64,000 bases of DNA, from NCBI GenBank assembly GCA_963971425.1, contig OZ020517.1, positions 23,756,462 through 23,820,461 of the forward strand. Reading direction: 5' to 3'. Both the position numbers and the translations under genes were made by a program. The notes under the pieces are model-generated. The model saw nothing but the letters and a program-made list of their open reading frames with translations. It did not search any database and had not been told where the DNA came from. The DNA comes from Bryoerythrophyllum caledonicum (Eukaryota > Streptophyta > Bryopsida > Pottiales > Pottiaceae). Below, piece by piece: positions 3,441 through 61,845 of this stretch (positions within the stretch are counted from its first letter, which is position 1; every line of letters begins with the position of its first letter).

Positions 3441-3760
3441 AATGTTGTTGGTCTTCCATTCTACCTACTTATGCTTAGACTAGCATATAGATAATTAGAT
3501 TCTTCCTCATCTATTTGACTTCCATTGTATTGTCCGGCTGTTGGATCATAGTACGCTAAAGTGTACAAGTTGTGGGCAAAAACATGGAATTCAATAGAAG
3601 TTGAAAATACATATTTTTACAATTTGGTTGATTGGTGGAGGAAGTCAACAAGATACTACACGAGGGCCTAATTTGTTATTTATTAAATCCCTTCTACAAG
3701 AATTTTTTTAAGAATGCTTGGGAGGAGGTACATTGTGACACTAAAAAGTCCTGAACTTAA

Positions 3761-4568
3761 TTCCTAAAGGACCAAAGTCCCATCAGGGGACATTTTGAGT
3801 TTGGGTAAGGTACCACGTTTTCAATTCTAGGCATTATTTTCTGAGATTTTTTAGTTAACAGACAACTTTTGATTAGCTTTGCGTAGATACAAATTTCGTA
3901 GAATTCCGACTTACGGTTCAAAAGTTACAGTTTATTTTTACTTACATATACAAATAGTGGAGCAGTTTAGTGTGACATATCACAAATACTATCACTAAAC
4001 TTTAATAACTTCTAATTTCAATAGAAATTCGAGTTTTTGTCCATTTAAAAGAAAGAAAATGTCCTCTTGGAAAGGAAATTTAGATCTTTGCATCCACCGT
4101 ACGGATTTGTGAATTTCAAAAATTTGAGAAGGATATGATATATGCAAAATAGAAAGTGTATTGTTGAATCTCAGCACATAGCTGCATTGCAGGATTTTTT
4201 AGGACATCTTCTACACCTCTTCTACTTCTAAAATTTAGTGCACATGTGCCTAACATGATCTTTTTCAAGTTAACATAATAAATTCACGGCCCATAGTGCA
4301 AAAAGTTGCCATAGAACGTGGTCGAAGTTTGTTGAAGGTGTTTAGTATGACCTCAAAAAGAGATTATGTCTCACTTCAAAGGCTAATATCTTTCAATCCG
4401 TGCAGTCAAACTTACCAAAATTTTCACCACACATTCTCATACAACTCTAGTACAAGATCCTATGATTAAATCTTCAGAAAAAACATTTTGTATCATTTCT
4501 TGTTGAATGCACTGAAAATGGCAGTTTTGGAGTGATTTTGAGGGGAAAATATCTTGGTCCTTTAGGGG
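3761..4568 (-). mobile_element. TTAA-flanked non-autonomous element, copy 1
   Basis: Flanked by TTAA at 3757-3760 and 4569-4572. Left terminus TTCCTAAAGGACCAA mirrors right terminus TTGGTCCTTTAGGGG. The interior carries the family core ATCTTTCAATCCGTGC near 4390. It shares its right TTAA with the next copy, so the two elements lie end to end. No open frame of note. Confidence 0.6.
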
Positions 4569-6375: not shown

Positions 6376-8687
6376 ATGGGCAGATTCGGATTTGTCTCAG
6401 TGTTGGCAACTGTGGTGTTACTTGCCTTCGTACCCTCAGAGTCAGTAGCAGCTGCGTTCGACCAACAGGTGTGCAGGCTCGCTCCTTCAATCTAATGATT
6501 GAATTCACGTTTTGTGATATTGGCTAGATTTGCCTTGTGATACATGCTGCCTTTGTAAACTTTTACAGCTATCCGTTTGTGCCCAATTTGAAGTTCTTCG
6601 TGTGAATCATGGCCTGAAACTGTCCCTCGTACATATGGGGTTGTTTTTCCGTACTTTAAAGTGGACACTTTTACATTCTGCATAAGTTTTTAATTTTCTG
6701 GATGGGATGAGGGATGAGGAGCTCATTTGAGCAAGCAAGCAGGAGCAGTACTGAATTTGCCAAGCTCATGATTGACGATGCGCAGGTTCGTATGGGGCGA
6801 AAGCTGGCGCACGCCACCACGCTGCAGCAGTGCTTGGCTCAGGGCGGTGCGCTTACGGCGTTTCCGGGGAGCTCCGAGTACAGCAACGCGCGAGAGGCGC
6901 ACAACACGCGGGACCTTTATGCGCCCGCGGCGTTCGTGTTCCCTACCACGGTGGCGCAGGTGCAGAACGCCATCACGTGCTCCAAGCAGGTGGGCGTGGG
7001 GATCGTGCCTCGCTGCGGCGGCCACTCGTATGAAGCCTACTCCCTCGGTCAGTACCCTCCCTCCCTCAATCGGTCATTGCTCTGTCGGTACTTTTCGCAG
7101 TACCTCGTCATCATTCAGCCATTCAATTCTCTCATCACATGGAACAGCTACTAGAATCCTTCAAGGAAGTGCGGACGAGTGCGGGGGACCTTTAGAAACG
7201 CGCTTAGAACTACTTTTGGGGATTTAGTTTTTACCCAAAGTTTCAATCAGATACCCCTTCTTTTTGTTTATTACACTCACTCTTATATACAGAAGAATTT
7301 TATGGTGTCTCAACTAGAATTCCTCAAATGAGTATGGAAGAGCATGGTGGTCTTGAAACTCAGACTAAGTAAGTGGCATTAACCACAACAGGACATGTTG
7401 TACCATGAACTGTAGCTGCCTTTTCAGTCAACTGATTCCAGATGTTTTGAGCTGAATTTATGTCAAATGAAAATAAGAAAGGCCGTCATTTACTCATTTG
7501 TATAACTTTACAATTGCCCGTTTGTTGCAGGAGGTCGGGATGGGGTGCTGGTGGTGGACATGGCGAGATTCAAGCAGCTCAGCTACAACAGCGCGGCGAA
7601 AACCGCCGTAGTGGGCGCGGGGTGGCGGCTGGGCCCGCTCTACTTGGCGCTCTGGAACGCCGGCAAGGTGACGATCCCGGCGGGCGCCTGCCTGACGGTG
7701 GGCGTGGCGGGGCACGCGCTGGGCGGCGGCTGGGGCTTCATCTCGCGCAAGTTCGGCCTCGTGTCTGACAACATCCTGGAGCTTCAGCTCGTCACCGCCA
7801 ACGGCACCGTCGTCACCTGCAACGCGAACAAGAACAAGGACCTCTACTTCGCGCTCCGAGGCGCCGGTGCCACCTCGTACGGGATCGTCACGCAGTTCAC
7901 GTTCCGCGTGAGCGACGTCTCGTTCCCCGTCACGCACTTCAAGTACACATGGACCACCAAGTCGCTCCAGTTCCAGAACTTCAAGGCGTTCCAGATCTGG
8001 GGGGTCAACGTCCCCGCCGAGATCTCCGCCCTTTTTTACATGGACACTGCCGGAGTTAGCTGGCTAGAAGGGAACTACCTTGGCCCCAGATCCTCCCTCC
8101 CACCTCTAGTCCAAAGCTTCCTCTCCGCTGCAGGACCCAACCCCAAAACTAGCGTGGAGCAGGTCGACTGGATCCACTCGACTCTAGTGAGCGCAGGCTA
8201 CGCTAGCAACACCGATCCAAACACCTTGAACAACATCCCGTACCCCACCTTGTCATTCAAGGCCAAGTCAACCTTCGTGAACGCGCCGGGGATGTCGAAC
8301 CGGGGGATCAACGCCATGATCAAGGCCTTGAGATCAGCCGGGAACAACAACGCGTACTTCAGCTTCGATCTGTATGGCTCCCAGTCCGCTATCAACAACG
8401 TGGCACCGACCGCATCTGCGTTTGTGCATCGAGGCTCTCTTCACAGCGTTCATATGGTGGCGTATTGGAGTAACGCGAGTGATGCGGTGGGGCAGACGAG
8501 GTACATCAGGAACTGCTTCGATGCCGTGAAGCCGTATGCCACGGGAGCCGCGTACCAGAACTTCATCGATAGTGATATGCCTCTCAGCGCGTACTACGGG
8601 GCCAGTCTCGGTAAGCTCATCCGGGAGAAGAAGAAGTGGGATCCGCAAAATGTCTTCAAGTTCCGGCAGAGCATACCGCTCAATTAG
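6376..8687 (+). CDS. Berberine bridge enzyme-like FAD-linked oxidase, secreted
   Basis: Three exons (6376-6468, 6786-7047, 7531-8687) joined by GT-AG introns encode 503 residues, normal for this family. Exon 1 is a signal peptide with a hydrophobic core at about residues 8-20, which fixes the start at 6376. The FAD-binding PCMH-type domain spans about residues 75-250. His111 in RCGGHSYEAYS and Cys172 in PAGACLTVGVAGH match the two residues that hold FAD covalently in bicovalent members. The C-terminal BBE segment (YQNFIDSD, then WDPQNVFKF) is intact. Enzymes of this family oxidise alcohols, sugars or alkaloid precursors with oxygen and release H2O2; the substrate here cannot be read. Exons 2-3 are very GC-rich, with many codons ending in G or C, in AT-rich surroundings. 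It converges with the JmjC gene. Confidence 0.93.
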
Positions 8688-9931: not shown

Positions 9932-12900
9932 TTAGACATTCCGCTTCCTCAACTGTCGTGAAGTTCTTCCTGCCTTGTTTGAGGGCTCATGATCTGCGGA
10001 GTCGTCTGACCCGAGTTCAATGGGCTCTCCATTCTCTGGCTTGGCCTCATGAGGCTTTGACTTTGGTCTCTCCTCGGGTAACTCCCTGTCAACATAATAT
10101 CATGTGCCAGAGCATTAAGCAAAACGCTTCAGCTTTTCAGCACGCATGTTCAGTTCTTCACCAATTTACGTTGTTATTCCAGTAAATTTCTCCTCCAGTT
10201 GACAATCAACTTGTTGGCTGAAGCTCATTATATTCATAGACTTTCTGTGGAGCAAATAATATGATCTATAAAACCTGGGGACCCTGTCCTCCCGCGCCAC
10301 TGCAGCTTGGATCTTCTTGTGTACTTATAAAAACTATGGAGGGTCTTTTTCCTGGCTAAATACTCTTCCAACGTCTCTTCAATGGCGTCTTCCCTGTGTA
10401 AATACTCAACATGAATCATAGAAGGAGTACATCAAGTAGTATATCACAAATATAATACGAGTCTCGTTCACAAGCTCAATCATTTTCATAAATTCTACCC
10501 GGTTAACTCTTGCTGGTGGATTACTAACGGTTTTGCAGGTAACTTCTGGCTTTTCAGTTCTTTACAAAACGCCTCCAACGTCTCGTCCCTGGACTCACTC
10601 ATGAAGTACACAAAACTTAGTCTCAAAACTAGGCAGAGCGCCTTCAAGACTTCATAAGTTTGAAAGCAACTCACTTAGACCTCTCCATCTTGTGGAGCTG
10701 GTCCACAGCGTGCCTGGCTGTATACAGCATCATCTTCCTCACCTAAAAATATGGAACATATACATGTCAGTACGTCTTGAACACAGAAGAAGGCACCAGA
10801 GTAAATTCAGGGCTAACCTCCAGCTTGTCCTCCTTCGCCCGGTGAAATACGGGAAGAAGTCGAAACTGATTCGTAAGCTCGACACACTGCTTCACATTCT
10901 CTGGCGAAACGAAGTCGAGTGCCACCTTGATACAAGACTGCAACACCAATTCCAAATGGATTAGAATCTAGAAAAACCAATAATGTGCAAGCAGGGACAT
11001 AGGTCACAGTTTAAGTCAGGAGTGCATATATTATTGAGTCAGGGCTACCTTCAAATTACGAACTTGGTGAGGACATCCAGCCGGGATGAAGACTGCTTCC
11101 CCAAAATCCTGCTCGAAAGTCCAGGGCTCAACTCCTACAAAAGTAATCATGATGGAATTAATAACCACGAGCTGACCATAGAGGTGATTATAGAGTGTTT
11201 TCAGAAAACTACAAAGCATTTGAAGAGTCTCACCGTATTCCTCCTTCAACTTCCTCTTTTGCTCCGCATCCAGGTAGAATGTCTGATCGTGAATGGGATG
11301 CCACACCTGCAAATTGAGGCAAATCATTGATTGGGCACATAGACCGCAAAATCTAGCAAGAAACTGGAAGGACACATATTTGGGATAACTCACGGCATTA
11401 AGGGGCATTTGGTCGATGTGCAAAAACTCTTGGTAATGTTTCCGCAGGAACTCCTCGAGCTTGGGCACGTCCTCCCGTCGAAAGATGTCCCAGAGAGCGC
11501 CGCCATAGCTTGGCTTAAGCTGCTGCTCTTCGATTGCAACAGTGCCGTTGCTTTCCAGCTTCACGTGAGTCGCGCTTGAGTGACCGTTTTCACCATTCGG
11601 TAGTGTCGCATCACCAGAAGTACTTGCGATTTCCTCCTTCACTTTCGCTATCTTCGCCGGTCTTCCCCTCTTCCCTGGTTTTGGCTTGGCCGGTTCCTCT
11701 GTTGCCTTGTGGCCGAAAGCACCAAAAGCAACCTTGCCTTTCTTGAACTGCTCTTGAAGCTTTGCAATTATCGTCTGCTGGTCCTTGAGCCAACTAATCT
11801 CGTCACAATGGGTCAAAACATTCACCTGAAATTGAAACCAGTATAGATAAGAATTTTAAGTGGTTAAAACAAGAGATAACACCAGAGTTTCATGAACATA
11901 GCCGAAAAGGACATGAAAGGACTTTGAGAAAACTTACCGCATCTGACATGTCGCAATGCAGCTTAGTGACTGAGTCTCCCATCCCCAGCTCATGCCTCAT
12001 CCCGTAAGCAATGTACGTCTTCGGGCCCAAGTCTGGCTTGATGGCATCCTGGGGCACCTGAGCAGCAAGGTTGAGCAGCCCTGCTGTTGGATCAGTATAC
12101 TCCTGAAAAGGCAAGGATCGGAGAAACTCCGACCCATGCCGTGGAAGCCGCTCCTCAAAGTAATTCGATGGTGGCCAATCCTTTAACTTCAGCAACTCCG
12201 GCCATCCTTTAGGCTCGACATGAAGCCTCCCTTCTTCATACCCTATGAAGAACTGGTGAATGTTGATCTCCACCTGAAAAGACGAATCAAAAACCAATAC
12301 ATGAATAACATCTCTAACATCAAAGAACGACTGTACACGAAACCGAGGAAAAAGCATTCCACAACACATCGCATATGGAAAAAAAAAAGACATCTTTGAA
12401 ATTACAAAAGGCCTGCACGTGCTTGAATTGAACAAGATTTAAATGTAAACCAAAACGAGGCTCTTCTTACCTCGCGCCAATCAAGGCAATCTAAGGCCTT
12501 GACAGTCTTGTTATCGTCCTCAAATTTGCCTTTGGTGGTTTCACGAACAGCGCGCCACATGACCATGGGATCCCAGCTGAGTCCCAAGGGATCATGCCTC
12601 ACAATGTCTGTCACAATGACCGGCTCTCCAAGCGTCCAGTGCTTCTGGAAGTGCACAAGGCCTTCATCCACCAAGCTCTTTCGTGTGGGGCAGAACAGGT
12701 TGTTATCATTCGAGGTCTTCCTGTTGGCGCAGCAGCGCAGCTGCATCTGCGTCTGCCCACTCTCATGGGCGTCCGACTTCTCGCAGATAGCACAATACAT
12801 ATCTTTGCTCTGCTTCACCATCTCCCCAGGCATGGCTGCAGCATTCTCCACGTCCTGCATGAGCTTGGCCGTCCAGTCCTGGTCGAAGAGAGTGCGGAGG

Positions 12901-15664
12901 GACAACATGGTCTCACCGCAGCCGCCTCGTTCTCGAGGAGGACATGGAATCGAACCGTCTTTGTTTGCAGACCAAGGTGGTAGAGGCAGCGGCTCAGGCT
13001 TGGGTGCACCGGTTTCACCTTCTGGCTTTGGTGCACTGGTTTCCTCTTCTTCTAGCTTTGGTGCACTAATTTCACCTTCTGGCTTTGGTGCAATGGTTTC
13101 ACCTTCTGGCTTTGCAGCCTCTGGCTCCGGAGGAACCTCAGCTGCAGGTTCTTCAACTGCTGCTTTTCTTCTTCTTTTGTTCTTGGGAGTTTTCTTCAAC
13201 TGCTTTCTTTTTTGTTTCTTTGGCGCGAGTTTGTAGTCGTCCACCTCTTCCTCCTCGACGTAGTTGTCTCTGTTGAACGCGGACTCCGCTTGCTCGCCTC
13301 CGGGCTGAGATCCGCTCCGCAGCTCATGGCAGCATCGGAGGCACAGGTCGTAGTCGCACTTCTTGCAATTCCGGTGGTAGTCCACGATGGATGTGTTGCA
13401 GTTGTTGCTGCACGTTCAAGGTCAACCACTGATTGTCAACGTGAAAGCAATAGACACATAGCACAACCAAAAAAGACTACTTCTAAAACCAATAAGACAA
13501 ATATGTTCACATGACTGTGAGTTCGATGCAAATGCAAGAAACATACTGCAGAAACGAAAAGACAAGTATACTCGGTATGTGCATCGTACGATCAGTATGT
13601 GCATCATACTTATGTATGAAGGTGAATAAGTATGACCATAAATTCACTGATCAGACTTGTATCAGAAATCTCTGCAATTAGACCAAACTCAATTCATGCC
13701 GGTTGTTCAATACGATTGAAGGCAAGTGTTTTAAATCCAATAAATTATGGGGTGGCTGCTATGCATGTGTCATGTCACTCACCAGTAAAGACGTTCGTCT
13801 CTGGTAATCGGTGCCCGTTCCACATGCACAGTCGGCGTTCCTGAACCCATGCCACAGATAGACTTTATACCGCATTGAACATGGTTCATCCGAAAATGAG
13901 TAACATGAAGATCACACACAGATCAGCAATAAAATCGGCACAATAAGTAAGATAAAACTTAACCACAAGGGAGCTTTCTGAGCACCAGCATGTTTGAGTC
14001 TGATTGCATAAATAAATCTCATCCACATGGAGCCACAGCTCACCTTGCACATTGCGCTCCACCTTGAGCTCCTCCCGCTGCTCCTGGTGAAGCTTTTGTA
14101 AGCAAGGAAGCAAATTTTTCAAGCAATACAGATGCAGATTCTTCCTCGTCTCCTTAGAAAGACCTGGTTTTACCTGCCAAAAGGTGGCATCACAACACAT
14201 AGATTAAATCAGTAACAGGATGGGATTAAGTAAAATGGTTAAACATATGACATGAAAAAGAGCACTGCCTTTGGACTTGCACAACAGAAACCACAACTCC
14301 ATTCTGACTAAAACTCAAATCAACATCAAACTCACCCACGTAGGCCCAGGTAAGCGAAGACAAGCCTTGCAATTGCAATTACCCAGGCACCATGGGCACT
14401 TCTTCTCTACTTCCTCAAAAGTTCTGCCGGGGTACCTACAAACGCAAAGGGAAGGAACTCCCATCAAAACGCGCTCGCAACATAGCAGAGATGACTACCA
14501 CATACATGCACATGCAAAACCATGCTAGATTTGGAGTTTTGAGTCCTCAGTGTCCTCTCTAGTACCCAGTACAATAACAGAGAAATATGATACAAGAGAG
14601 GATATTGAGAACTCCGAACTCCAAATCTCTGCATCTCAGAAACAACCTGGATCTCAAAGCTCACAGAAGCACAACCGATCGCTCATTTACCAGTTCGTGA
14701 TGCAGTCCGAGCAAAAACGCTTCTTTCCACAGTTGCCACAGAACGCCACGCTCTCTTTCTTGCTGCTTTGGCACTGATGGCACATGCGATACGACTCGAA
14801 GGTCCTAGGCTTCTTCCTCTGTAAAAGCATAATAAGAAGACATGTAAGCAGTTTGTAACATATGCTAAGCATGTTGCAATCATCTACTGCACCATATCAA
14901 CAAACTGTACTCGTAACATATCAACAAAGATGAGGACTAACCTGTTTGCCACTCCGGGGCTTGGAGGACTCGCTATCGTCGTCATGGTCGTCATCGACGT
15001 CGTCGGGGGCGTCCTCCGCCTTGGCATCTGCAGCAGGGCGAGTAGCAGGTTTCTTCTCGCGTTGTAGTAGCTTCTTTTCTTTCAAGACCTTAGGGACTTT
15101 AGGTTCTATACTGGCAGGAGTAGTAGGCGAGGATTCCTTAACCTTAGGCGTCCTGGGGGGCTTAGAGGGGTCGGACGACGACTTAGACCGGAGGTAGTCC
15201 CTGTGGTGCTCACAGTAGATAGACGACTCGACCCTCGGCTTCCCGCACTGCCATTTCTTCCCGTCACTTCTGCGACACCGCATCTCGTCACTAGGCGGGG
15301 GCGGTCTCTCAGTAGATGACTTGCGCTTCTTGGTAATGCTGCGGGGGGTGGTTGACTCCGATCCTTCTGGTGCTGTTGTTGTTGCTGTTGCTGTTGCTGT
15401 CGCTGTTTCTGTTTCTGTTGCTGCTTCTGTTGCTGTTGCGGCTGCGGCTGCTCCTCCTTCTTTGGATGGTGGTGCCTCCACTCCGGACACGTTAGGCTCC
15501 TCGGTCTCGATCTCGCTCTCTTCGTCGCTGCCACTGTCGCTGCTCTTCTCACTGCCCCTGCTGCTCCTGCTAGACATGTCTGCCCTCTCCAGCCGCGCTT
15601 GCGCATCTTGCTTCGCCTGCCGATGCGGCCGGGCCCTCATCGGGATATCTGCCCCCCTGATCAT
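9932..15664 (-). CDS. JmjC histone H3K9 demethylase, JMJ25/KDM3 type
   Basis: Fifteen exons read on the minus strand: 15664-14942, 14818-14691, 14435-14336, 14173-14044, 13840-13783, 13407-12471, 12273-11938, 11825-11394, 11306-11234, 11134-11049, 10937-10818, 10742-10675, 10588-10529, 10393-10325, 10085-9932. All junctions are GT-AG with matching phases, giving about 1157 residues. Order: acidic Ala/Thr-rich start; WRC domain (128-159); RING-like Cys cluster CHQCQ...[11 protein letters not shown] (about 253-315) with [15 protein letters not shown]-like finger (380-410); APKPEGE repeats; JmjC domain (about 660-1030). Metal ligands His798 and Asp800 (HCDMSD) and His995 (CPHQVRN) are present, so it should be an active Fe(II)/2-oxoglutarate enzyme removing H3K9me1/2, as in plant IBM1-type proteins. 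The last three exons code a charged tail. Upstream non-coding exons are possible. Confidence 0.92.
14527..14628. repeat. Foldback hairpin in an intron of the JmjC gene
   Basis: Two arms of 33 bases (14527-14559 and 14596-14628) are inverted copies at roughly 75-80% identity, separated by about 36 bases. They lie in the intron between the RING-like exon and the CPWC exon. Could be a miniature foldback element. Confidence 0.55.
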
Positions 15665-16550
15665 GAAAACGCTAAGGCATCATCAGACAAAAAAATCCAG
15701 GCTTCATGCACGGTTTCCACTGATCATGAAGGGAACAAAACGTCAACACGTACATGACAGAGTGAGCGCGTCACTGGCAGCTTAGTATTATGCCTCCGTT
15801 CGCTACTTCAGACATAATAATTCGCCTCGTTCGCATTTGCTGCTGCATCATGTCCACAACCAAAACCGTCAGAAAACAAAACCAAAAAAAATCAGCTTGA
15901 ACCTTACGCCACAGATGCAAGATTAAGAGCTTCAGCCAAGAAGACCGAGAACTTGCAAACACCTCACACATTCTTTCAGATCACATTGAAAGAGAAAAGG
16001 GGAAGGGCGAAGGCACACTTCACATGCACCAGAAGCAAACAACAAATCCACACGAAGGTCATGAAAAAAGAGCGCCAAGAATTTTCCGACACGCATATCC
16101 ACACATTAAAAAAAAAAAACAAGATCTCCCGAACACAAGAAAAGGCAATCAACCTCTCCGCATTAGGTCACCCGACAACAACAACAACAACACCTCCCAA
16201 GATCTCTCTCTCACCACGACCTAACCTCCCCAAACACATCCAAAACACCCACCTTGGTCACAATGCTGCCCCTCCACACACACACACACACACACCGCAC
16301 TTTGTAGCCACCACCACGACCACCTTCGCCGAGTCACAAAGTTGGTACCTTACTGCTGGTGATGGCGACGCACTGCAACAAATTAAGAAAGAGAAAATTA
16401 CATTACACACCCCTCTTTCTCTCTCTCTAATCAACTCACGTACTGAAAGGTATGTCACACCAACTCCCAACTCCCGATCTCGCACTCTCTTTCTCTTCTA
16501 CGAGAAAGCATGAACCCCTTTCCAAGACGAAGATTACATTTCTCTCTCTC
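15665..16550 (-). promoter_or_regulatory. Putative 5' UTR and promoter of the JmjC gene
   Basis: Upstream of the demethylase start. It holds a (CA)n run at about 16275-16295 and CT-rich blocks at about 16410-16425 and 16540-16550, common in plant 5' UTRs and promoters. A 186-codon plus-strand frame here is low-complexity Thr/His/Lys and is not called. No definite TATA box was assigned. Confidence 0.35.
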
Positions 16551-41784: not shown

Positions 41785-43700
41785 ACCAAAGCCAAAACGA
41801 TTATCAACGTCGAGCTGTACTCCCACATAGTACGCAACCTTGCCTGTGGCGCTCCGGACTGGTGCGATGTGCAAGTTGTTCCAAAACGGAGTGTTGTCCT
41901 TCCTGCACAAAATCGGTGGATGCATCAGCAATGCATACAAGTCTGTGTGTAAGTAGTGAACTACTTTGCTAACAGTCGGGATGTTTCACGAGAAACTACT
42001 TCTGATCAGTTCATGTTGTCGGAAGCCATGCCTGGAATCTGACGTAAAGTGTGTGGATGTATATCTATATAGAAGAGTTCGTCATCATCATCGTGTGAGA
42101 CGATACTTTTTATTTTTCTGGGCACACACAATTTGCTATATCGGCAACTTGTGGCACGTCATACTACATCATCCTTTATCTCGGTGAACATCTGACACCC
42201 TCTATAAAGTTGGCATCAGCATCACGAGGCCTCGTCGCATGCCATAGCTAGAATGGACATTGGACGATAGAGTGGCCTGGAACTCTAGTATTCAAGATAT
42301 CTGCTTATAATAATTGAAACGGAGAAACATCTGCTTCAAAGCCGTGTTGTACTTACTTGCAAGCTAAACTATTCAACACAATCTAGGAAGATGCTCTGTT
42401 AAGTAGAAAGACGTCTAAAGTTTAGAATGTTGATATGCTCGGCTGTAATTCAGAATTCTCACGGTGCAGGGCTTCTCTACCTTGATGGCTTCATAGATCT
42501 GGAAGGAAAAGCATAAGCTGAAGTGAATACCAAATCACAAGGGAAAAAAATACTCACAGAAATCCTAAACCTAGTACTCGAGGGTTCCAATGTCATTCGT
42601 TAAATGAGGCTCCCACCGTTATTCAAGATTGGCACACTATTGGCGAAGTAACCTAATGAATTAGAAATCTCTCGGTAAGCATTCGAAAGCAATTAGATAT
42701 AGCACGTCTAAAACAGTTGCACACCGAAGTGCATTCTTCTCAAATGAACGAAAATCACCTCTCGCATAGTCTCGCAGACCCGGCCCTCTCGCACAGTCTC
42801 CGGAGATCCTCTCGCACAGTCTCGCAGATCACGAAAATCACCTCTCTCGCACAGTCTCGCAGATCACAAAAATCACCTCTCTCGCACAGTCTCCGGAGAT
42901 CCTCTTGTACAGTCTCGCAGACCCGGCCCTCTCGCACAGTCACCGGAGATCCTCTCGCACAGTCTCGCAGATCACGAAAATCACCTCTCTCGCACAGTCT
43001 CGTAGATCACAAAAATCACCTCTCTCGCACAGTCTCCGGCCCTTGCAAGAACTGGCAACTTCGACCAACGACTTCCTCCCGACTATAACCTGTCCATACA
43101 CAACACATAAGTGTTTAGGAGAGGAATGACATTTCGGCTACAGACACTCGGCGAGAAATGACATTTTAGCTACAGATTGACCTGTTAGTTCGTAGAAGAC
43201 GTCGCTAGCGTGGACAATGGGCGTATCCGGCAGGCTGGGTCGGTTCTACAAAAAAAAAGTCCACAAACACTAAGCAACTTTCATAATCTCAAAAGCTTGA
43301 ACCCTAATTTACGATATTAATCTCGAGAAACCGAATTGACAACACAGTTGCTTACAAGACAAGGCTCTGCTGAATGCGTGTGAGCGAGACCATCAACGAC
43401 GAGCTTACAACGCCATTCGACAGCCCGACGCCGCGGCTCTGCAGGGCCGCACCTTCCGCTTTGCTCGACTGGGTGAGCTCCTCAGTCACTGTCTGCACTG
43501 CCAACGCGGCTCTCTGCAATTGTATGCAGAGAAATGTGTCTCGGCAATGTGGAGTTCGAATCTACAATTACCTCTTCGGTGCCTACACGCACATTCCCAC
43601 GTCCAGGATCCTACAAGAAGTTCTCGAACATGGTGTAATTCATATCCATAGACTTCCAAGCTCACACTCGGGATTTGGAGCTGCAACAAATGCGAAGGAT
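41785..43700 (-). pseudogene. PAS/LOV (twin-LOV type) photoreceptor fragment, broken
   Basis: Minus-strand exons in order: one ending at 43356 (SLMVSLTRIQQSLVL); 43245-43182 (NRPSLPDTPIVHASDVFYEL); 43089 to about 43031 (YSREEVVGRSCQFLQGPET); 42498-42445 (IYEAIKVEKPCTVRILNY); 41902-41785 (KDNTPFWNNLHIAPVR, then GKVAYYVGVQLDVD). Together they spell one LOV domain, which binds FMN and senses blue light. The photoactive cysteine is present (codon 43055-43057, GRSCQFLQ). Signs of decay: a one-base phase mismatch between the first two exons, no donor after ILNY, about seven residues missing after QGPET, and a tandem array grown out of the LOV exon. The wording is closest to plant PAS/LOV proteins rather than phototropins, from memory. 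No second LOV domain or PAS domain was found. Confidence 0.7.
42760..43038 (-). repeat. Tandem array derived from the LOV exon
   Basis: Many copies of CTCTCGCACAGTCTC alternate with CGGAGATCC and AGATCACAAAAATCACC in a higher-order pattern of about 23 and 33-38 bases. Its right end is the LOV codons P-E-T-V-R-E, so the array seems to have expanded from coding sequence. Stops occur in the LOV frame. Confidence 0.8.
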
Positions 43701-46430: not shown

Positions 46431-48840
46431 TCTACTATAGATTAGTTGGTGTTTTTATTTTTTGAATGAACAAGTGGTAGTGCCGTGTATGAACATTCAT
46501 GAGTTTCATCCTCTTGACAGATGTCGTGAGATGAATTCTATTATTTATGAACTTTTTTGTCTTTGTTTTTCCCGCTTGGACTTGTTTGTCTGGTTGTCAT
46601 TTTGAGTGTGAGCACATGGATGTCGCTCTAGAGAGCTTCTTAGAAAACATTTGTGTATTTAGTGTTTAGCTAATTAGACCTTGATATTATACCAATAGTA
46701 GTAGATGAATAAAGGGAGCTCTATAAAGACTCGCATCCACTCTCTAAATGTGTAGGAGCAAATCATGTCTTCTTGTGTGTCTCTAAGTGTTTTGTGAGTA
46801 TGTACAATCTATGCAATAGAAACTTCATACCCTATTAAAAAAAAATTAACATAAAATATAGATATTGTATTGGCCATGTTTTAAAATCTTTTCAACTTGA
46901 AGTTATTTCTAAAAATGTTAAAACTTCATAGTTCCACATCTATACAATGATATATTTTTACCATAACAAATTCATATTTGAGACGAATAATAATCCAAGT
47001 TTATCATCCCTCAATCCAAGGCTACAAAATGACTTGACTTTTAGGTCACTATTACGACAATAGGCTCAATCAAGGCACAAAGTGAATTCAACAATTTCCA
47101 ATCTGTGCGCATGCCAAAATAGTACAAATAGATCATGCAAATTTTGCATAAATCCTTTGAAAATGAGAATACACATAAAGCATAATGATCACTTGATTTA
47201 TTTCCTTTTCACTAATAACTCGTTTCTAGAATTGGTAAGTGCTTGAACTTCATGAAGAAACATGAATTGAAATTGGATACCCTACACATTGCCCAATTTT
47301 GTACTGTACATAATTTAATTCACAATGGAAGATGTCCATAATTTTTGAAAAATTCAAGAGATTTGTCTACGTGATACCCATGTAATGCGAGGAGCAGGAG
47401 GAGCGCACGCCGAAGTATGACGACGTGACGGTGGAGATTTACGCCACTTTGAAGGATCTGTGCGTCGGGAATTCGTATCACGTGAGACAGTTCATATGGT
47501 TCATTCACCGATCTACATGCAGCTCATGCGTAATGGCGTAGGAAAGTGTATGTGTCACGGGGGACCTGCATTGATCATTCTGGAGTCGTTCAGTTTAGTG
47601 CTGGTAATGGCGGCGAGGTCTGTGGCAACTGATATTTTGAAAACTTTGAGAAACTGAGAGCGTGAAGCAATGTTGGATTTTGGAGATTTTAAGCTAAAGA
47701 TAAACTCCGCAAGTTGAACTTCGGAGTGCGTGTGATGATCGCTTTCTGATAGAGTTCGGGCTTTCTGGTGCGGCCTTCTGAATAATTTCTCTGAAGAAGC
47801 GATTTAATTCTCTCTGAAAATTTGAACTTACAGCGGTTTGGAAATTTTCTATACTAAGAATGACAATCAGTGTTAATAGAGAGCATTTAGTGTCCTAGTA
47901 CGTGTTGTACTCATGGATCAAGCTGGCATTTTGTGCTAGTTATCTGCTAACGGCGGCATAAATTAGTATTTTGCATGACAACTGGATATTGTGCCTTTAA
48001 TGGAGTCACGAGTTCTGTTGACGAGGATAGGATTCTCTCGGAACAATGGTAGCTTGCACAACAAGCTGTTACTCTCATTATATCAAGATTGCAACCTCCT
48101 TGTCTCGTCGTGCGCTTTCTGTGATATGGCTCTGCTCTGTCAGGTTCCTTAGCACCGAGAGCCAAATGCAGAGTAGTTCGCCGCTAGATACTCCGAGAAC
48201 TACGCTTTGTGTTCACTTCGAGGCTGTACCTGCGAGCCTCGGTGGCTTTGCTCTAGCTACTGTGAGAGTAGTGGCAAGCCCGATGCTCCAGGCCTCCAAC
48301 CTAGCTTCTATCTTCTTGTCCTACCTCCCACCTTCCCCGAAATGGCTCAGCTCTGCTTTTGTAACTCCGACATAGTACTCTCGAAGGTCTCTCTGAGGGA
48401 AGACTTAGATGTGGAATTTGTATAGTAGCGGCGAAAGTAGTTCCTGCGAGAGCTATTCTTGTGGTCGTTTCAGGTATGTACGTGCTCTTGCAACGATCGC
48501 CAGACCATCTAGTAGCCGCTTATTTACCCATTTCCTTTCTTGCGCGTTTCCCTTGGCTGAGTACCCGACTTTCTTCAAGGTCTGGTGATTGTCTGGTTGG
48601 TGTATTCTAGTGCATGGTTTCACAGCAATCATCATGACTGCGATTGCAGGAGGTCGATCGCTGCAGCCCCGTTGCAACCCCGCATGAACCAGGGCTTGGA
48701 GATCAACCACTCTGGACCCTACTAGAGGAGGCTCCAGGGCTGGAGATTTCTTCCAGGATTGTTCCGGATTTTTTGAGGCTCGCAATTCTTCAAGCGCACC
48801 TCCAGCGATGGAAATTTCCCATTCTGTGGCTGCGGGATAG
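46431..48840. other. Spacer with one coding-like patch
   Basis: 46431-47370 is AT-rich and may include the 3' remains of the copia element. At 47383-47484 a GC-richer patch reads EEQEERTPKYDDVTVEIY before a CAC|GTGAGA donor-like site. At 48651-48880 a plus frame reads EVDRCSPVATPHEPGL after a GCAG acceptor-like site. Either could be an upstream exon of the Ulp1 gene, but no phase-consistent link was found. Frames at 48046-48425 show no domain. Confidence 0.35.
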
Positions 48841-48888: not shown

Positions 48889-51209
48889 ATGGAGTACATC
48901 TCAGTGCAGAACTTGATAAGACAGTCGCCCCTTGGTATCTCCACACTACAATACTCTCAGAATTTGCCAGTTACGGAACATGGTGGTAAGTTAAATTTAC
49001 AGACCAAGCCACCAGTCTGAGATCTTAGAGGCAGCACTTTGCTCACACCTCGGACTTCTGTTGCTTGTTCCACCGACTGCGCTAACTAATACACCTCGTC
49101 TGCATGCTTTGATTTCAGGCTTGAGAGACTTACGTGTGCAAGGCAATGGTGAGCAGGAGCTCCATTCCCAAACACCAGAGGCCTGCACCAAAAGCAAGTA
49201 CGAGTATGAACAGAGCGCGGGCACTTCTTTCTTGGGCGACAACCGACGAGGTGAAGTGGTTACCTATCCTGAAGGTGAAGCTGACGCTGTGACAATCACT
49301 AAGCAAGATATGGAGGGTCTCCGACCGACAAAGCATCTGAGCAACAACATAATCGACTTCTATATCAAGTGAGTCAGCCAAGTTTTGGTATTTCCATCAG
49401 ATTTGAAATATTTGTAGCAGAATCGATCTTTGTGCTTGTTGACTGCTCATTTTTTGGTTAACTAGATCTCTATATTCAGTACCGAATGTATTGGTGTTGG
49501 TCTAGGTATCTGAAAAAGAAGCCTTTCCCTGCGGACAGAGGACGTTTTCATTTCTTCAATAGCTTCTTCTTTGCGAGAATTTCAGGGATTAATTGTGCAT
49601 CGGACGACACCAATCACTGCAAGGTTGACTATGAACAAGTGCGAAAGTGTTCAGCAGAAGTTAATCTGTTTGAGAAGGACTTCGTTTTTATTCCGGTCGT
49701 GAGAAGGTGATTTTAGTACAGTATTGTTCGTATGCAAGGCTGAAGCGTTATTTGCAATGGTTTCAGTACACTTACATTGAGGAAGCTTTTGAGCATTGTT
49801 TTTGAACCATCTGGTTACGTGTAATGTTTGTGTACATGGCAACAAAGAGTACATTTGTCGGTCATATAATATGAAGCACAGGCGGCTTTCAGGTTCTCAC
49901 GTTTGTAGCGGGCTCTATTTGATGGCAGATCGCATTGGAGCCTGATCATTATCTGCCATCTTCGGAGCCTTTTGAGCGCATCTGGTGCGGTCGTATTCCC
50001 ATGAACAATATTTGATGCTGTCGTTTGTTTGTGGATGGATGAAGTTCTTACTTCCTATGACATTCCCTTGACAGGTGAAAAGAGAGGCTCACCGTGTATT
50101 CTTCATCTGGATTCGCTTGAAGGGATTCATGAGAACTTCAAAAGGCACGTCCGGAGGTGAGTATGTGGGTATCATTACACATGAATCTCATTTGTAAACT
50201 CAGTGTGTGATGGTCCCTGAATGTATGTCTTGTATTGCACAAACTTCGACAAGTTGTCCAAGTTACTCTGGCAGTAGAACTGGCACATGGGCAAAATATT
50301 TATTTTTCACAAATTACTGAAATTTGTTGGAAGATCGTTCTATACTGCAAGAGAAATTTTCCTGGCAAATAGGAATTGAGCTAGGTTTCTATGTGAAGAT
50401 TATTCATATTGACTTGTAGCGACCGACCAACCATCTGCTTGATTGCTGTGGCCATTGTTACCCCTGTGCAGCTACCTATCAAAAACATGGATGGAGAAAT
50501 TCCATGCTTCAGTTGACATAGAGAAGTTTCATGCTATAGACAAAAACATGGAGCAGTTACTTGACCTCTGTCAAATGAAGTACATACGAGCTGAGGTACT
50601 GGCCAACAGAAATCGTGATGGTCTTAACTGTGATTTGGGAGGGCTGTCGGAACTGTGCAGTTATGATAGGACATACAAAGCTGTGAAAGAGCATTTTGTG
50701 CAGAGTTAGGTTTGGAATTTTGATATTTAATATGATTGCATACATCAGGTTCCACGTCAAGAGAACGTCTACGATTGCGGTGTATACCTCTTACACTATA
50801 TGGAGGTCTTTTTGTCTGAGGCAACCTCAGTGAGATTTGCTCCAAGGAAAGGGTTTCCACTCTTTATCCGTCCACAATTTGTAGAAGAGGTTTCAGAAAA
50901 ACGCCGGGCTATTCAGGGTCTCATTTGTGGAGTTAAAGGTGATTATCTATCCTGTAAATATGTGTTATGTTGAATGGGCTTTGGGTCTATGTACGGTATG
51001 TGTCCGTATCGTCGGAATCATGCTCCAGATTGCCAAAGGCTGTGTGAAACTCTTTCATGGCATTATTCTATTGTTTCCATATGTTAATAAAGCAGATGTT
51101 GGGCAACCCTTTCTTGTACCGCACCATGAAGTGTGCTTTGACGAATAATTTTGAAATTACTGTTGTTGGTCAATTTTTAGGGAAGATCTGGTTACCTCAA
51201 TCAAGGTAA
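48889..51209 (+). CDS. Ulp1-type SUMO protease (peptidase C48)
   Basis: Exons 48889-48985, 49119-49368, 49506-49706, 49929-49984, 50075-50156, 50472-50595, 50749-50938 and 51181-51209 (stop TAA) join at GT-AG sites with matching phases and give about 343 residues. The Ulp1 fold is clear: LSNNIIDFYIK, KPFPADRGRFHFFNS, FEKDFVFIPV. The catalytic residues are His185 (RSHWSLIII), Asp214 (ILHLDSLEG), Cys280 (YDCGVYLLHYM) and the oxyanion Gln274 (VPRQEN), so the protease should be active. This family matures SUMO precursors and removes SUMO from proteins, mostly in the nucleus. The 5' end is uncertain: 48889 is the first ATG in frame, but the frame is open back to an AG at 48840. If the GTAATG at 51206 is used as a donor, the gene runs on into the trihelix and LRR modules. 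Confidence 0.87.
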
Positions 51210-51283
51210 TGATTAACTTTAATGATTCTACAAATCGCTAGAAACAGCAATGCAAGCGTTATTCCAATCTACTTCTAAGGCTT

Positions 51284-52277
51284 ATGTCAGCAGCATCTGG
51301 TGGGTGCATTACAGAGGCGCACAGCAACAGCGTGTCTACCTTTGATTCTCACGCAGACAATCGATCAACTTGGGAGTTGACATTTGAAACGAAGACTCTA
51401 AGTGATGCTGCGGTTGCGCATGAAGAGTACGAATCATTTGAAGGAGTTTCAATGGACAAGAACCAACAAGTCAGAGCACACCCAAGTGCTGCGTTGCTTG
51501 AGCCATCCAAGGTGAGTAACAAGCGGAAATGGACAGATGAGGAGACTTGGACTTTGCTCAACTGTAAGGCTGAAGGAGGCCGCTTGTGCAAGGACATCCA
51601 AACTGGTATGAACTGGGACAGTGTCTCTCAAGAAATCACAAGCAGGCTGGGAACCACAACGTCGGCGGAGCAGTGTCGGCGCCGATACGAGACTTTGCAG
51701 AAGGCTTACAAGAGCATGAAGGACTATTCTGCGAAAACCAGCCAGACGTTTTCAGAGATCACGGAAGAGGAGAGACTTGAGCTGAAATTGGCAACAACCT
51801 TGAATGAGGAATGGTACAAGTGCATCGACGCATTCTCTCACAAAGTGAAGTCCCAAAAGCGAGGCAGCCATAGTGGTGGTGATGGTACTGGCCAGGTTTC
51901 AGCGGGTGATGTGAACCACTCAGCACCTGTTGGTTCAGCAGTCCCAGCTCCTGCAGCGACTACAGCACCAATCTCACCACCAGCACCGATAATTCCTTTC
52001 GGAAAATCCGGAAAACAAGTTGTAAGTTCTGGAGTACCTCCTGCCTATGCTTTGCCATGTCATATGAGCACCGAGTGTCGTTGGCAACGGTGAGGTGATA
52101 CTTGTGTGCGGCCAAATGATGGGCCATGCATGTGATTTGCATTGATGTCTTGGGTTTGTGGCGCAGGCTATTCCCAATTTCGACAGATTAGAAGAGGACC
52201 TGAGATCCACACTTCTGGATCTTATCATGGTTTGGCAAACTGAATGGACACTTAATCACGAAGAGACATGCCGGAAG
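51284..52277 (+). CDS. Trihelix (Myb/SANT-like) DNA-binding protein or module
   Basis: An open segment (51280-52021) is followed by an exon at 52167-52277 across an intron with GTAAGT and GCGCAG, phase 0. Counted from the ATG at 51284, a trihelix domain spans residues 81-145: KRKWTDEETWTLL, MNWDSVSQEI, then EQCRRRYETLQKAYKSMKDY. Trp83 and Trp111 and the helix spacing fit plant GT-factor-like DNA-binding domains. A Gly/Ser and Ala/Pro-rich linker follows. The second exon codes a helical stretch (FDRLEEDLRSTLLDL). Without splicing the frame stops at 52093. It may be an independent transcription factor, or the middle part of a longer protein joined upstream to the Ulp1 exons and downstream to the LRR exon, all in phase. 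Confidence 0.75.
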
Positions 52278-52562
52278 GTGGGAATTGTGCGAGATTGGAA
52301 ACCGCTCGTCATTCGGATACATGTAACTTTTCGATTGCAAGGGCTTCGGTTTCAGAATTCGTGTTTGGATCGATCATTTCGCACCAGTCCATTGGGGTGT
52401 AAATATGCTTTTAGTCCGCTCTGGAGAGTAGGAAGAGACCAAGCGTGCCCTGAACTGGATTGCAGCATAACCTGGAGAGTTATGTTCGTGTACATGGGAT
52501 GGCTTGTCTTCCGATGGCTATGATGATGCTTGACGCACACGGAAAGGTTGGTTGATGTGCAG

Positions 52563-53522
52563 TTGCGTAAGCTTGTGAACTTAAAATATGATGAAGAGGC
52601 GCTGAGTTGGTGTACACGGGATGATATGGTGGAAGTGGGAAGTCTGATGGTGTACAAGGAATTTGTAGAGAAGGTGCTTTGCGAGAATCCCGAATTCGAC
52701 ATCTACCAGAACATACGGGACAATAATGACGTCGTTTCGTTTCCCGAGGCGCCAGTTTCGTCAATGTCTGTGCAGCAAATTAGAGTGCTGGTACTCTGTC
52801 GGTGTTGGAACCTCCAGCGTGTCGACTTGAGTTTCTTCCGAGAGCTGCGCTACCTCCACATCGATGCTTGTTCTAAACTGGAGAAGGTAACAGGGTGGGA
52901 AGTGGTCCACAAATTGGGATACCTTGAAATCGGTGGGTGTGTTTCTTGCAAGGATTTTCCTCCAGTACAGTGGCTTTCTTCTTTGAGGGAGTTTAAGGTT
53001 TATAGTTGTGGGATCGAAGTAGTTTCGGTGCCTGACTTCAGCCAGTGTGTTCGACTGCTGACACTAGAGATCAGGGGTATTGATACTTTGGTGCTGTTGA
53101 ATGGTAAGGATTTGAACACGTTGTGGCGCTTGGAAGTCTTGGACCTCTCTTATTGTGGTGCCCTGACAACCATCCAGGGTTTGAGCGGACTACATTCCTT
53201 GACGACACTGGTGCTTGTAGAATGCAGAGCGCTGAGAAGAGTTCCAGAGTTATATTGCTTGGAGGCTCTCACTTTATTGGACCTAAGTGGATGCCGTTCA
53301 TTGGAAACATTGCCCTGCTTAGGCACCTTGACAAAGTTGACTAGGTTGGATATAAGTGAGAGTAGTGTGAAGGTGATCCCAGGCGTACGAGACTTGATCA
53401 GCTTGGAGGAATTACATTGTGGAGGATCAAGGTTGAAGTGGCTTCCTGATTTGCACCACTTGCCTAAATTGAAGTCGGTGTTTATACATGGCACTCCTTG
53501 GAGTACAACAGAATATTATTAA
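52563..53522 (+). CDS. Leucine-rich repeat protein or module
   Basis: An uninterrupted frame of 319 residues from an AG acceptor at 52562 to the stop at 53520. If it is a separate gene, an ATG at 52530 is in frame. After about 75 non-repeat residues come roughly nine LRRs of the cysteine-containing kind: LVLCRCWNLQRVDLSFF, LRYLHIDACSKLEKV, LEVLDLSYCGALTTI, LTLLDLSGCRSLETLP, LTRLDISESSVKVIP, ending LPDLHHLPKLKSVFI. This pattern matches the LRR regions of plant NB-LRR and related cytoplasmic proteins. No NB-ARC, TIR, kinase, signal peptide or membrane span is seen in this frame. The exon start is phase 0 and fits the exon ending at 52277. The stop codon lies inside a tandem repeat. Confidence 0.8.
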   Translation: MRKLVNLKYDEEALSWCTRDDMVEVGSLMVYKEFVEKVLCENPEFDIYQNIRDNNDVVSFPEAPVSSMSVQQIRVLVLCRCWNLQRVDLSFFRELRYLHIDACSKLEKVTGWEVVHKLGYLEIGGCVSCKDFPPVQWLSSLREFKVYSCGIEVVSVPDFSQCVRLLTLEIRGIDTLVLLNGKDLNTLWRLEVLDLSYCGALTTIQGLSGLHSLTTLVLVECRALRRVPELYCLEALTLLDLSGCRSLETLPCLGTLTKLTRLDISESSVKVIPGVRDLISLEELHCGGSRLKWLPDLHHLPKLKSVFIHGTPWSTTEYY

Positions 53523-54324: not shown

Positions 54325-55700
54325 CTATTCTGTTTCAGAAGCTCTTTCTGCACCTCCAATCTTACATGGAGCAATATGATGGGTAGCGAATTGCAACGAG
54401 CCCAATAAATCGTTTTCTATAACCTCGTACATGCGTCTGCAGAGCGCATCAGTTAGAGTGGTGAAGTCGATAACTTGGAGGCGAATATCTTGCAGGAAGC
54501 TATCATCGATGTTCTGCTCCAAAGGAGCTTCTACATGCTTCACGAGCTTCGATAAGCGTTCCACAGATTCCTCCAGTTGTTGTTGCTGATACTCAAACAA
54601 ATGTTGGCTAATGACCTTTTTTTCTTCGGACACGAAATCCATGAATATGTCATTTCCAAACATGAAGTATGCGAAAGCAAATGAGTAAGAAAGAGCCCGT
54701 CGAGCACGACATTGCCTCTGCAAACCAATTGTAAGCCAGTTGTAATCTTTCCCTTGACACTGACTATCTTCCAGAGTAGTTATCTTATCCTTGATAGATT
54801 CCTGCTGCTTCTGCTCCAGCTTTAACGATTCCAAATGCCCTTTCCAGCGTGAGTGATAATGAATGTAGCGTTTCAAGTCCCTTTGTGCCCTTGCAGCCTC
54901 TTTTTCCTTCTCATCTTTTTTTCCCTTCTCATCCTTGAAACGACCACAGCTGTGTCCCGCAATGCTATTCCAGTTATGTTCTCGACCAGTAGCTGCTCCA
55001 CATAGCCAACAGAAAGCTTGACCACAGATACAGCTGATTAGGCTACATCCGCCATTTCGACTAGCTTGTAGCACTTTGGACAAGGTTTGGTATAAACAGT
55101 GAGCCAATTTTCTGTCTCAAATTCTTTGCACTTCTTGTCCCACAGTGCCCACATATGACAAGAACATGGAGAATGAGGTTCAGCCATACAGTTGAAGCAA
55201 AATTGTTGCCCACAAAGACACTCAATCTCATAGTATGGCTCCCCCTCCAGCCGATTAGCATTACCACAATGCGAGGTGCTAGGACACCACTTCACTTTGG
55301 CATTGTCTTCAATATATGACTCCAGAAGGAACCGCTCATAACGTTCAACTGACTCCGGGTCTTCTGAACCAACCAGCTCCCGTACATTGTCTTCGTCACA
55401 AATTGCACCACACTGATGCTCCATACAAGTGACGCGCCGGCTCTGGCCATCCTTTATTTTTATTATAAAATGTTGGGTCCAACATCCATTGCAAAAGACA
55501 TGCCCACAATCCATGCGAGTAGCTGCAGTCGTCGACACTTCTTCAAGGCACGTTCCACATCTAAAAAACCGGCTGATGTTATCAGCGACATGCACATCAG
55601 ACTTCGTCTCAGGTGGAGGCAAACCAGCTTCCAAGAATATAGGAGGATACTCAACTAGAAATTTGAAACTAGACAAATAGTTCAAGAGGAAAACTGACAA
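54325..55700 (-). pseudogene. ARIADNE-type RBR E3 ubiquitin ligase, intronless and frameshifted
   Basis: Minus-strand frame 55700-55038 codes RING1 (CGTCLEEV...CGHVFCNGCW), the IBR (CPSTSHCGNANRLEGEPYYEIEC-type Cys pattern) and the first half of RING2/Rcat (TKPCPKCYKLVE). It stops at 55038. Frame 55107-54325 resumes with NGGCSLISCICGQAFCWLC and the ariadne C-terminal domain (YIHYHSRWKGHLESLK to GSLQFATHHIAP). The switch lies at 55055-55058, where the length differs from the expected E-K-N codons by four bases, three codons before the catalytic cysteine (codon 55045-55047). Plant ARIADNE genes of this class are normally rich in introns, so the lack of introns and the missing N-terminus suggest a retrocopy. 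The upstream frame would give only a ligase without the catalytic cysteine. Confidence 0.85.
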
Positions 55701-55827
55701 GAACTTGAATCAACAAGAAAGTACATGAACACGAAGAAAGGCGAGCTAGAGCTCCAAGAGATGCATTGTTGAGACCGGAGAACTCTTCAACTTTGACTCC
55801 AATATATATCCTAGTCTATAATATAAG

Positions 55828-61547: not shown

Positions 61548-61845
61548 TTATATATAATATATATTACATATATATCATACATTATGTATATAATATACAT
61601 AGTATATACATAGTATATACATAATATATATATAATATATACATAATATATACATAATATATACATAATATATATATAATATATACATAATATATATATA
61701 ATATATATACATAATATATATATTATATATACATAATATATATATTATGTATACATAATATATATAATATATATACATAATATATATATATAATATACAT
61801 AATATATATATAATATATATATAATATCTACATAATATATATAAT
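61548..61845. repeat. TA-rich low-complexity satellite
   Basis: About 300 bases of ACATAATATATATATAATAT-like units. The Tyr/Ile frame read from it is an artefact. Confidence 0.9.

Follow-up and report, generated by a model that had tools for sequence, protein, structure and literature searches.

Analysed here is a stretch of 64,000 nucleotides from the moss Bryoerythrophyllum caledonicum (contig OZ020517.1, positions 23,756,462-23,820,461; locus label G000:C4:23756462-23820461), hereafter called the window. Its positions 48889-53522 encode, on the plus strand, a SUMO protease domain of the Peptidase_C48 (C48) family, a trihelix domain (Myb_DNA-bind_4) and leucine-rich repeats (LRRs). Comparison of sequences indicates that the three are almost certainly modules of one gene. 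Rebuilding of the eleven exons gives the 945-residue protein that a sequence-only reading of this DNA had proposed, with all ten introns of the GT-AG type, 74-315 nt in length, and with both module links of that model in frame (51205/51280 in phase 2, 52277/52563 in phase 0). The stops said to end the unspliced frames are also found, and close them at 51209 and 52093. The gene and its borders are read as follows.

48808..48840, + strand: upstream ATG homologous to the start of paralogues, with an in-frame TAG at 48838-48840 (DNA alignment with paralogous loci L011, L014, L018 and L027; translation MEISHSVAAG, then stop)
48889..48985, + strand: exon 1, from the ATG of the model; intron at residue 33, phase 1, the same in L011, L018, L027 and L014
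49119..49368, + strand: exon 2; the C48 domain begins at about 49331
49506..49706, + strand: exon 3; C48 domain
49929..49984, + strand: exon 4; catalytic His185 at 49933-49935
50075..50156, + strand: exon 5; catalytic Asp214 at 50110-50112
50472..50595, + strand: exon 6; C48 domain
50749..50938, possibly to 50963, + strand: exon 7; Gln274 and catalytic Cys280 (50776-50778)
51181..51205, + strand: exon 8, a 25-nt microexon, uncertain
51280..52021, + strand: exon 9; trihelix (Myb_DNA-bind_4) at about 51524-51754
52167..52322 (earlier 52277), + strand: exon 10 with corrected end; opening part of a winged-helix-like segment
52563..53522, + strand: exon 11; remainder of the winged-helix-like segment, LRRs at about 52779-53519, stop TAA
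53498..53611, + strand: 37-bp tandem repeat of 3.1 copies, across the stop codon

For exon 10 the likeliest end is 52322, and the earlier donor at 52277 was probably misplaced, because a stretch that is present in proteins of the moss Ceratodon purpureus and missing from the 945-residue model is encoded in the window just 3′ of 52277, and because the homologous later donor is GTAAGT in L011, L018 and L027 (GTAACT at 52322 in the window). The change adds 15 residues and gives a protein of 960 amino acids. Exon 8 is possibly not real: when extended to 50963, exon 7 joins exon 9 directly in frame and, with the corrected exon 10, also yields 960 amino acids. In L011, L014, L018 and L027 the reading is open from the ATG homologous to window position 48808, as judged by eye in the alignment; the window has the TAG at 48838-48840, and the ATG at 48889 is thus the next start of this copy. 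Pfam models detect Peptidase_C48 (5.7e-05 and 2.7e-06, in two exons), Myb_DNA-bind_4 (7.6e-10) and LRR_4 (5.4e-16) in single exon pieces, and the same three in the corrected 960-residue protein (1.1e-24, 6e-09 and 3.2e-14, respectively).

The arrangement is repeated elsewhere in the genome. The LRR exon has 216 matches in the 437-Mb assembly (894 contigs), and the best 15 loci, the window's included, were examined together with L044 (the same place as L035) and L045. All 15 LRR loci have, upstream on the same strand, a trihelix exon as well as the linking exon 10, and 14 also have the C48 exon with the catalytic cysteine. In ten loci a single exon covers the cysteine region of C48 together with the trihelix, eight of these loci being free of stops and frameshifts (L033 has one frameshift, L043 two stops); the protease is reached by splicing in four, the window among them. 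L035 (G000:C4:27351000-27357200) is a trihelix-LRR copy, and the 6.2 kb fetched there showed no protease. Models of the complete protease were built for the window and for L011, L018, L027, L020, L021 and L022; the remaining single-exon loci supplied its cysteine end alone.

Splice junctions were compared with a purpose-written spliced-alignment program, which reproduces the window gene model. In seven of eight paralogue models the intron before exon 10 is a phase-0 intron at window residue 589, the exception being the broken locus L014, and the intron before the LRR exon has one position and phase in 14 of the 15 loci. At the latter junction the program chose another path in the window, and the corrected exon-10 donor yields the matching junction. 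When given a Ceratodon template, the program followed a wrong route in the window near exons 7-8 and 10-11, as it also did at L029; therefore the exon-10 and pre-LRR values that involve L029 are not used. The joined frame is not due to chance, because splice positions, phases and module order recur in the paralogues, and the order recurs in another moss. Two incomplete members of the family were also encountered. L014 (G000:C4:23869400-23879300) has a protease part that aligns well and a trihelix with a frameshift, and no LRR was recovered downstream of it; L013, at 3487-3786, is a lone LRR fragment with 49.5% identity across window residues 731-831.

The other moss is Ceratodon purpureus. Whole-length and C-terminal protein searches scored only candidates that share most short words with the query, and the whole-length search covers the best 120 of 219 matches. 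Ten Ceratodon proteins alone among the matches listed align beyond the protease (56-98% of the query; others at most 36%). By Pfam domains nine of these ten have C48, Myb_DNA-bind_4 and LRR in the same order as the window: KC19_4G087500, 4G087800, 4G088200, 4G091000 and 4G203600, and M758_4G088200, 4G088800, 4G089200 and 4G091500. They are 40-47% identical to the window protein and have in common with it the linking segment between trihelix and LRR; they differ in being hypothetical predictions, in that some have a longer N-terminus, and in that several have an acidic C-terminal tail that is not in the window model. Where these copies have the tail, the window has the 37-bp repeat across its stop codon. 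The proteins come from two isolates (KC19 and M758), and therefore represent fewer than nine genes. The sequence-only reading had stated that no plant protein with this order was known, which the predicted Ceratodon proteins contradict; its preference for one protein over three neighbours is strongly supported by the paralogous loci, by splice conservation and by these same proteins. Linkage of the modules in relatives holds for the nine proteins, and two-module relatives also exist.

The latter are of two types. A trihelix-to-LRR query retrieves 11 proteins, all from Ceratodon: the nine with three modules, P0121 (C48 and trihelix, without LRR) and P0010 (trihelix and LRR). A trihelix and LRR without C48 are found in Ceratodon P0010 and P0122, and in the B. 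caledonicum genome in L035/L044 and probably in L045 (G000:C6:20528400-20533600), where a trihelix open reading frame (27.2 bits, cut-off 27) lies ~700 bases before a same-strand LRR exon, and no C48 match occurs in the 5.2 kb fetched. Further LRR matches on C6 surround L045, near 20.43-20.53 Mb. Physcomitrium and Sphagnum gave C48 proteins only, among the matches listed in a short-word search that does not prove absence elsewhere. In a tree of 28 C48 domains, from which P0006, P0008, P0009 and P0010 were left out and which has no ULP1-type rows, the 14 fused rows group together as a single clade (100/99), with one subclade that mixes both mosses (97/98) and two that are single-moss. Because one subclade of fused C48 domains holds both mosses, the fusion most likely predates their divergence. 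The simplest order of events would be addition of a ULP2-type protease to a trihelix-LRR gene; C48 loss is possible.

The protease part appears well preserved. The C48 match of the 960-residue protein scores 87.9 bits (cut-off 20.7), and His185, Asp214 and Cys280 are at the positions where the sequence-only reading had placed the catalytic triad, with Gln274 also present. The Gln of C48 proteases has an oxyanion role. All 14 fused rows of the tree retain His, Gln and Cys, and 13 retain Asp (Asn in P0001). The protease appears to group with moss ULP2-type SUMO proteases (84/84 support, in the tree without ULP1-type rows), and human SENP7 is the top solved-structure relative, both by sequence and for the predicted model of P0005. 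Members of the ULP2/SPF class (Physcomitrium P0011 and P0012, human SENP7, Arabidopsis SPF1/SPF2) resemble the window family in C48 fold and catalytic residues, whereas the Physcomitrium and Sphagnum proteins have C48 as their sole listed Pfam domain, with a match that covers 27% of the query. A review describes SPF (ULP2-like) proteases as an ancient plant class, with an SPF-like group limited to bryophytes, lycophytes and ferns (PMC11371177), and some plant SUMO protease mutants are reported to show a heightened salicylic-acid response (PMC6759571).

The trihelix match scores 36.6 bits (cut-off 27). Ratios of nonsynonymous to synonymous substitution rates (dN/dS), calculated per module with the uncorrected exon 10, are 0.31-0.46 for C48 in eight of nine pairs, the ninth (0.88) involving the broken L014, and 0.24-0.52 for the trihelix in seven of nine, with two above 1, one of which again involves L014. 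Despite the upstream stop and the terminal repeat, the C48 domain of the window itself has dN/dS of 0.31-0.42 relative to L011, L018, L022 and L027. The kept residues and low dN/dS suggest that C48 is a working enzyme in the fused proteins.

Between trihelix and LRR, a segment encoded by exon 10 and the first part of exon 11 is predicted to be winged-helix-like. The earlier three-module picture included neither this segment nor the diversifying LRR surface described below. The predicted structure of the segment together with the LRR resembles the C-terminal part of the helper nucleotide-binding LRR receptors (NLRs) ADR1 and NRG1 (root mean square deviation 5.1-5.8); unrelated LRR proteins reach similar Z scores, and the alignments of FBXL2 and LRRC8A likewise span 338-342 residues. 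ADR1 and NRG1 differ from the window family, in which no NB-ARC domain and, for the winged-helix part, no sequence similarity to NLRs was found. For the P0005 model the 50 VIA rows shown contain LRR proteins and two SENP7 entries and no ADR1 or NRG1, whereas Foldseek does list these two. Only domain folds are used from the models of P0005 (mean predicted local distance difference test score, pLDDT, 65.1, with 312 of 996 residues below 50) and P0010 (65.7, with 211 of 704 below 50). Among the 96 non-family matches listed for the C-terminal part, much of the match being LRR, 49 have a listed NB-ARC domain, as do eight of the ten best.

The LRR has evolved differently. Selection was analysed in nine of the 15 loci with an automatic set of positions and in eight with a hand-picked set, the latter chosen from regular-expression hits with four dropped and two end repeats added. 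In four pairs of loci meant to be non-overlapping (the C8 copies were not checked on a tree), the ratio of nonsynonymous to synonymous differences per site (pN/pS) is 2.68 at predicted exposed LRR positions, 0.15 at scaffold positions and 0.89 at other LRR positions. None of 5000 random sets is as extreme as the exposed set, and for pN versus pS p is 1.8e-05. When the register is shifted from -6 to +14, pN is mostly 0.05-0.20, and shift 0 is highest with pN 0.241 and pS 0.090. With the automatic set the bootstrap P(dN>dS) is at least 0.95 in 12 of 16 pairs, and the ratio exceeds 1 in 15 of 16. Amino-acid differences among the nine Ceratodon proteins follow the same pattern (0.536 at exposed, 0.034 at scaffold and 0.201 at the rest of the positions; none of 1000 random sets as extreme). 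Thus, as far as aligned sequences indicate, protease and trihelix are conserved and predicted exposed LRR positions diversify, as in the LRRs of immune receptors. A dN/dS of 3.2 is reported for exposed LRR residues of the resistance gene Pm21 (PMC7241504).

How such a protein might act can be proposed with the chances evenly balanced. The window gene belongs to a moss multigene family, the product of which has an N-terminal SUMO protease, probably of the ULP2 type, followed by trihelix, winged-helix-like segment and LRR; module order, frame across the splices, family, catalytic residues and pattern of selection can be read from the sequence, and the action itself is proposed. The trihelix would anchor the protein at selected promoters, and the LRR surface would sense a ligand that varies; the likeliest candidates are a pathogen effector and a host protein altered by it. 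Ligand binding would switch the attached protease on or off, SUMO would be stripped from transcription regulators at those promoters, and defence genes would be switched. The protein would then act in the manner of an intracellular immune receptor, except that one chain would carry both the enzyme and the DNA-binding domain and would have no NB-ARC switch. A chromatin-targeted deSUMOylase under LRR control, as suggested earlier, is consistent with the domains present and with catalytic residues left intact. The immune mechanism is the best-supported reading, but one that we infer tentatively and consider slightly more likely to be wrong than right. Rather unlikely, though worth stating, is a broader proposal: a class of moss intracellular receptors devoid of NB-ARC that combine recognition, DNA targeting and enzymatic output in one polypeptide, with a polymorphic LRR that exerts direct control over a SUMO protease bound at promoters, and that arose stepwise from a ULP2-type protease and an older trihelix-LRR gene, the C-terminal half perhaps derived from a receptor that had lost its nucleotide-binding domain.

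Several observations weigh against the receptor-like action proposed. With a threshold of E 0.01, no NB-ARC is detected in the window protein, P0001, P0003, P0005, P0007, P0010 or P0121. No Pfam winged-helix model matched the linking segment (HMMER drops most matches above E 0.1), and HH-suite comparison of this segment with 17 TNL and 12 CNL receptor sequences gives probabilities of only 0.2 and 0.1 percent, which is a weak test with a shallow alignment (Neff 2.6). In the selection analyses, a register shift of +5 is nearly as high as shift 0 (pN 0.221, pS 0.076) and has a larger pN/pS, two of five positions per repeat being shared; four of the 16 pairs, which are not independent, are below 0.95, one with a ratio of 0.91; and the ratio for the whole LRR is not always above 1 (0.66-1.57 in 16 pairs). 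Synonymous divergence (Ks) is uneven along the genes, which suggests gene conversion, and gene conversion complicates tests of selection. Conflicts other than immunity could likewise diversify an LRR. The fused C48 clade adjoins the Physcomitrium ULP2-type rows with 84/84 only, again in a tree without ULP1-type rows. The sequences from Ceratodon are predicted genes; two of them, P0008 and P0009, are without the histidine part of C48. The window copy itself may be weakened, given its N-terminal stop and the repeat at its end.

We know of no described protein of the C48-trihelix-LRR type, and literature searches of open-licence papers found no description of this architecture. Intracellular recognition in plants is usually framed through NB-ARC receptors. 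If the proposed mechanism is true, a conserved moss family in multiple copies that couples a fast-diversifying LRR to a deSUMOylase and a DNA-binding domain would link recognition to transcription by another route, and SUMO control would be tied directly to recognition. Ceratodon carries the family, and the idea can therefore be tested by knock-out and infection. There is also a warning here, as gene finders that split such loci would conceal the architecture. Ceratodon is included in a survey of NLRs from different plant lineages (PMC11218826), whose main text mentions none of ulp1, C48, protease, peptidase and Myb. Among the nearest known systems, besides the Ceratodon proteins and the ULP2/SPF proteases, are soybean Rpp1 (with ULP1, nucleotide-binding site and LRR) and other receptors with integrated C48, which like the window family have C48 and LRR in one protein (PMC9528084, PMC4759884); they differ in possessing a nucleotide-binding domain, whereas no NB-ARC was found in the window family, which has a trihelix.

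These receptors suggest another role for a fused protein. The protease, the trihelix or both may be decoys of host proteins that pathogens target, with the LRR as guard and a partner receptor that signals. Both C48 and Myb-like domains have been catalogued among the domains integrated into plant immune receptors (PMC4759884), soybean Rpp1 proteins bear a ULP1 domain (PMC9528084), and the LRR surface diversifies. However, the His, Gln and Cys kept in all 14 fused C48 rows and the dN/dS of 0.31-0.46 in eight of nine pairs point to a working enzyme, and no partner has been identified. We consider decoys improbable. Somewhat more doubtful is a fused nuclear deSUMOylase whose LRR selects not pathogens but fast-evolving host substrates, such as transposon, mating, sex-linked or hybrid-conflict proteins. 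A diversifying surface and the clustering of several copies on C4 and C8 suit any arms race, and the trihelix would suit targets in chromatin, but nothing favours such targets above pathogens, and NB-ARC is frequent in the non-family C-terminal matches listed (49 of 96, and eight of the ten best). Three adjacent genes (protease, trihelix factor and LRR protein) that duplicate as a block, the joined frame being a coincidence or annotation fusion, are very hard to credit and are rejected: the stops that close the unspliced frames and the two-module relatives P0010, P0121 and P0122 speak for them, but the C48 cysteine region and trihelix share one exon in ten loci (eight intact), splice phase at both later links is preserved in distant copies, nine Ceratodon proteins hold all modules, and the between-module introns of the earlier model are 74, 145 and 285 nt.

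Other features of the window lie apart from this gene. Just downstream, at 54328-55709 on the minus strand, is a gene for an Ariadne-type RBR ubiquitin ligase (Ariadne domain 2.7e-73, IBR 9.9e-14). An Rfam search of the 64-kb window gave 0 matches. Open reading frames at 7506-8684 (+), 11034-11855 (-) and 14924-15679 (-) have FAD_binding_4/BBE, JmjC and WRC domains. Tandem repeats are present at 42768-43039, with a 143-bp unit (1.9 copies, 98% matches), and at 61549-61843, an AT-rich 11/22-bp array.

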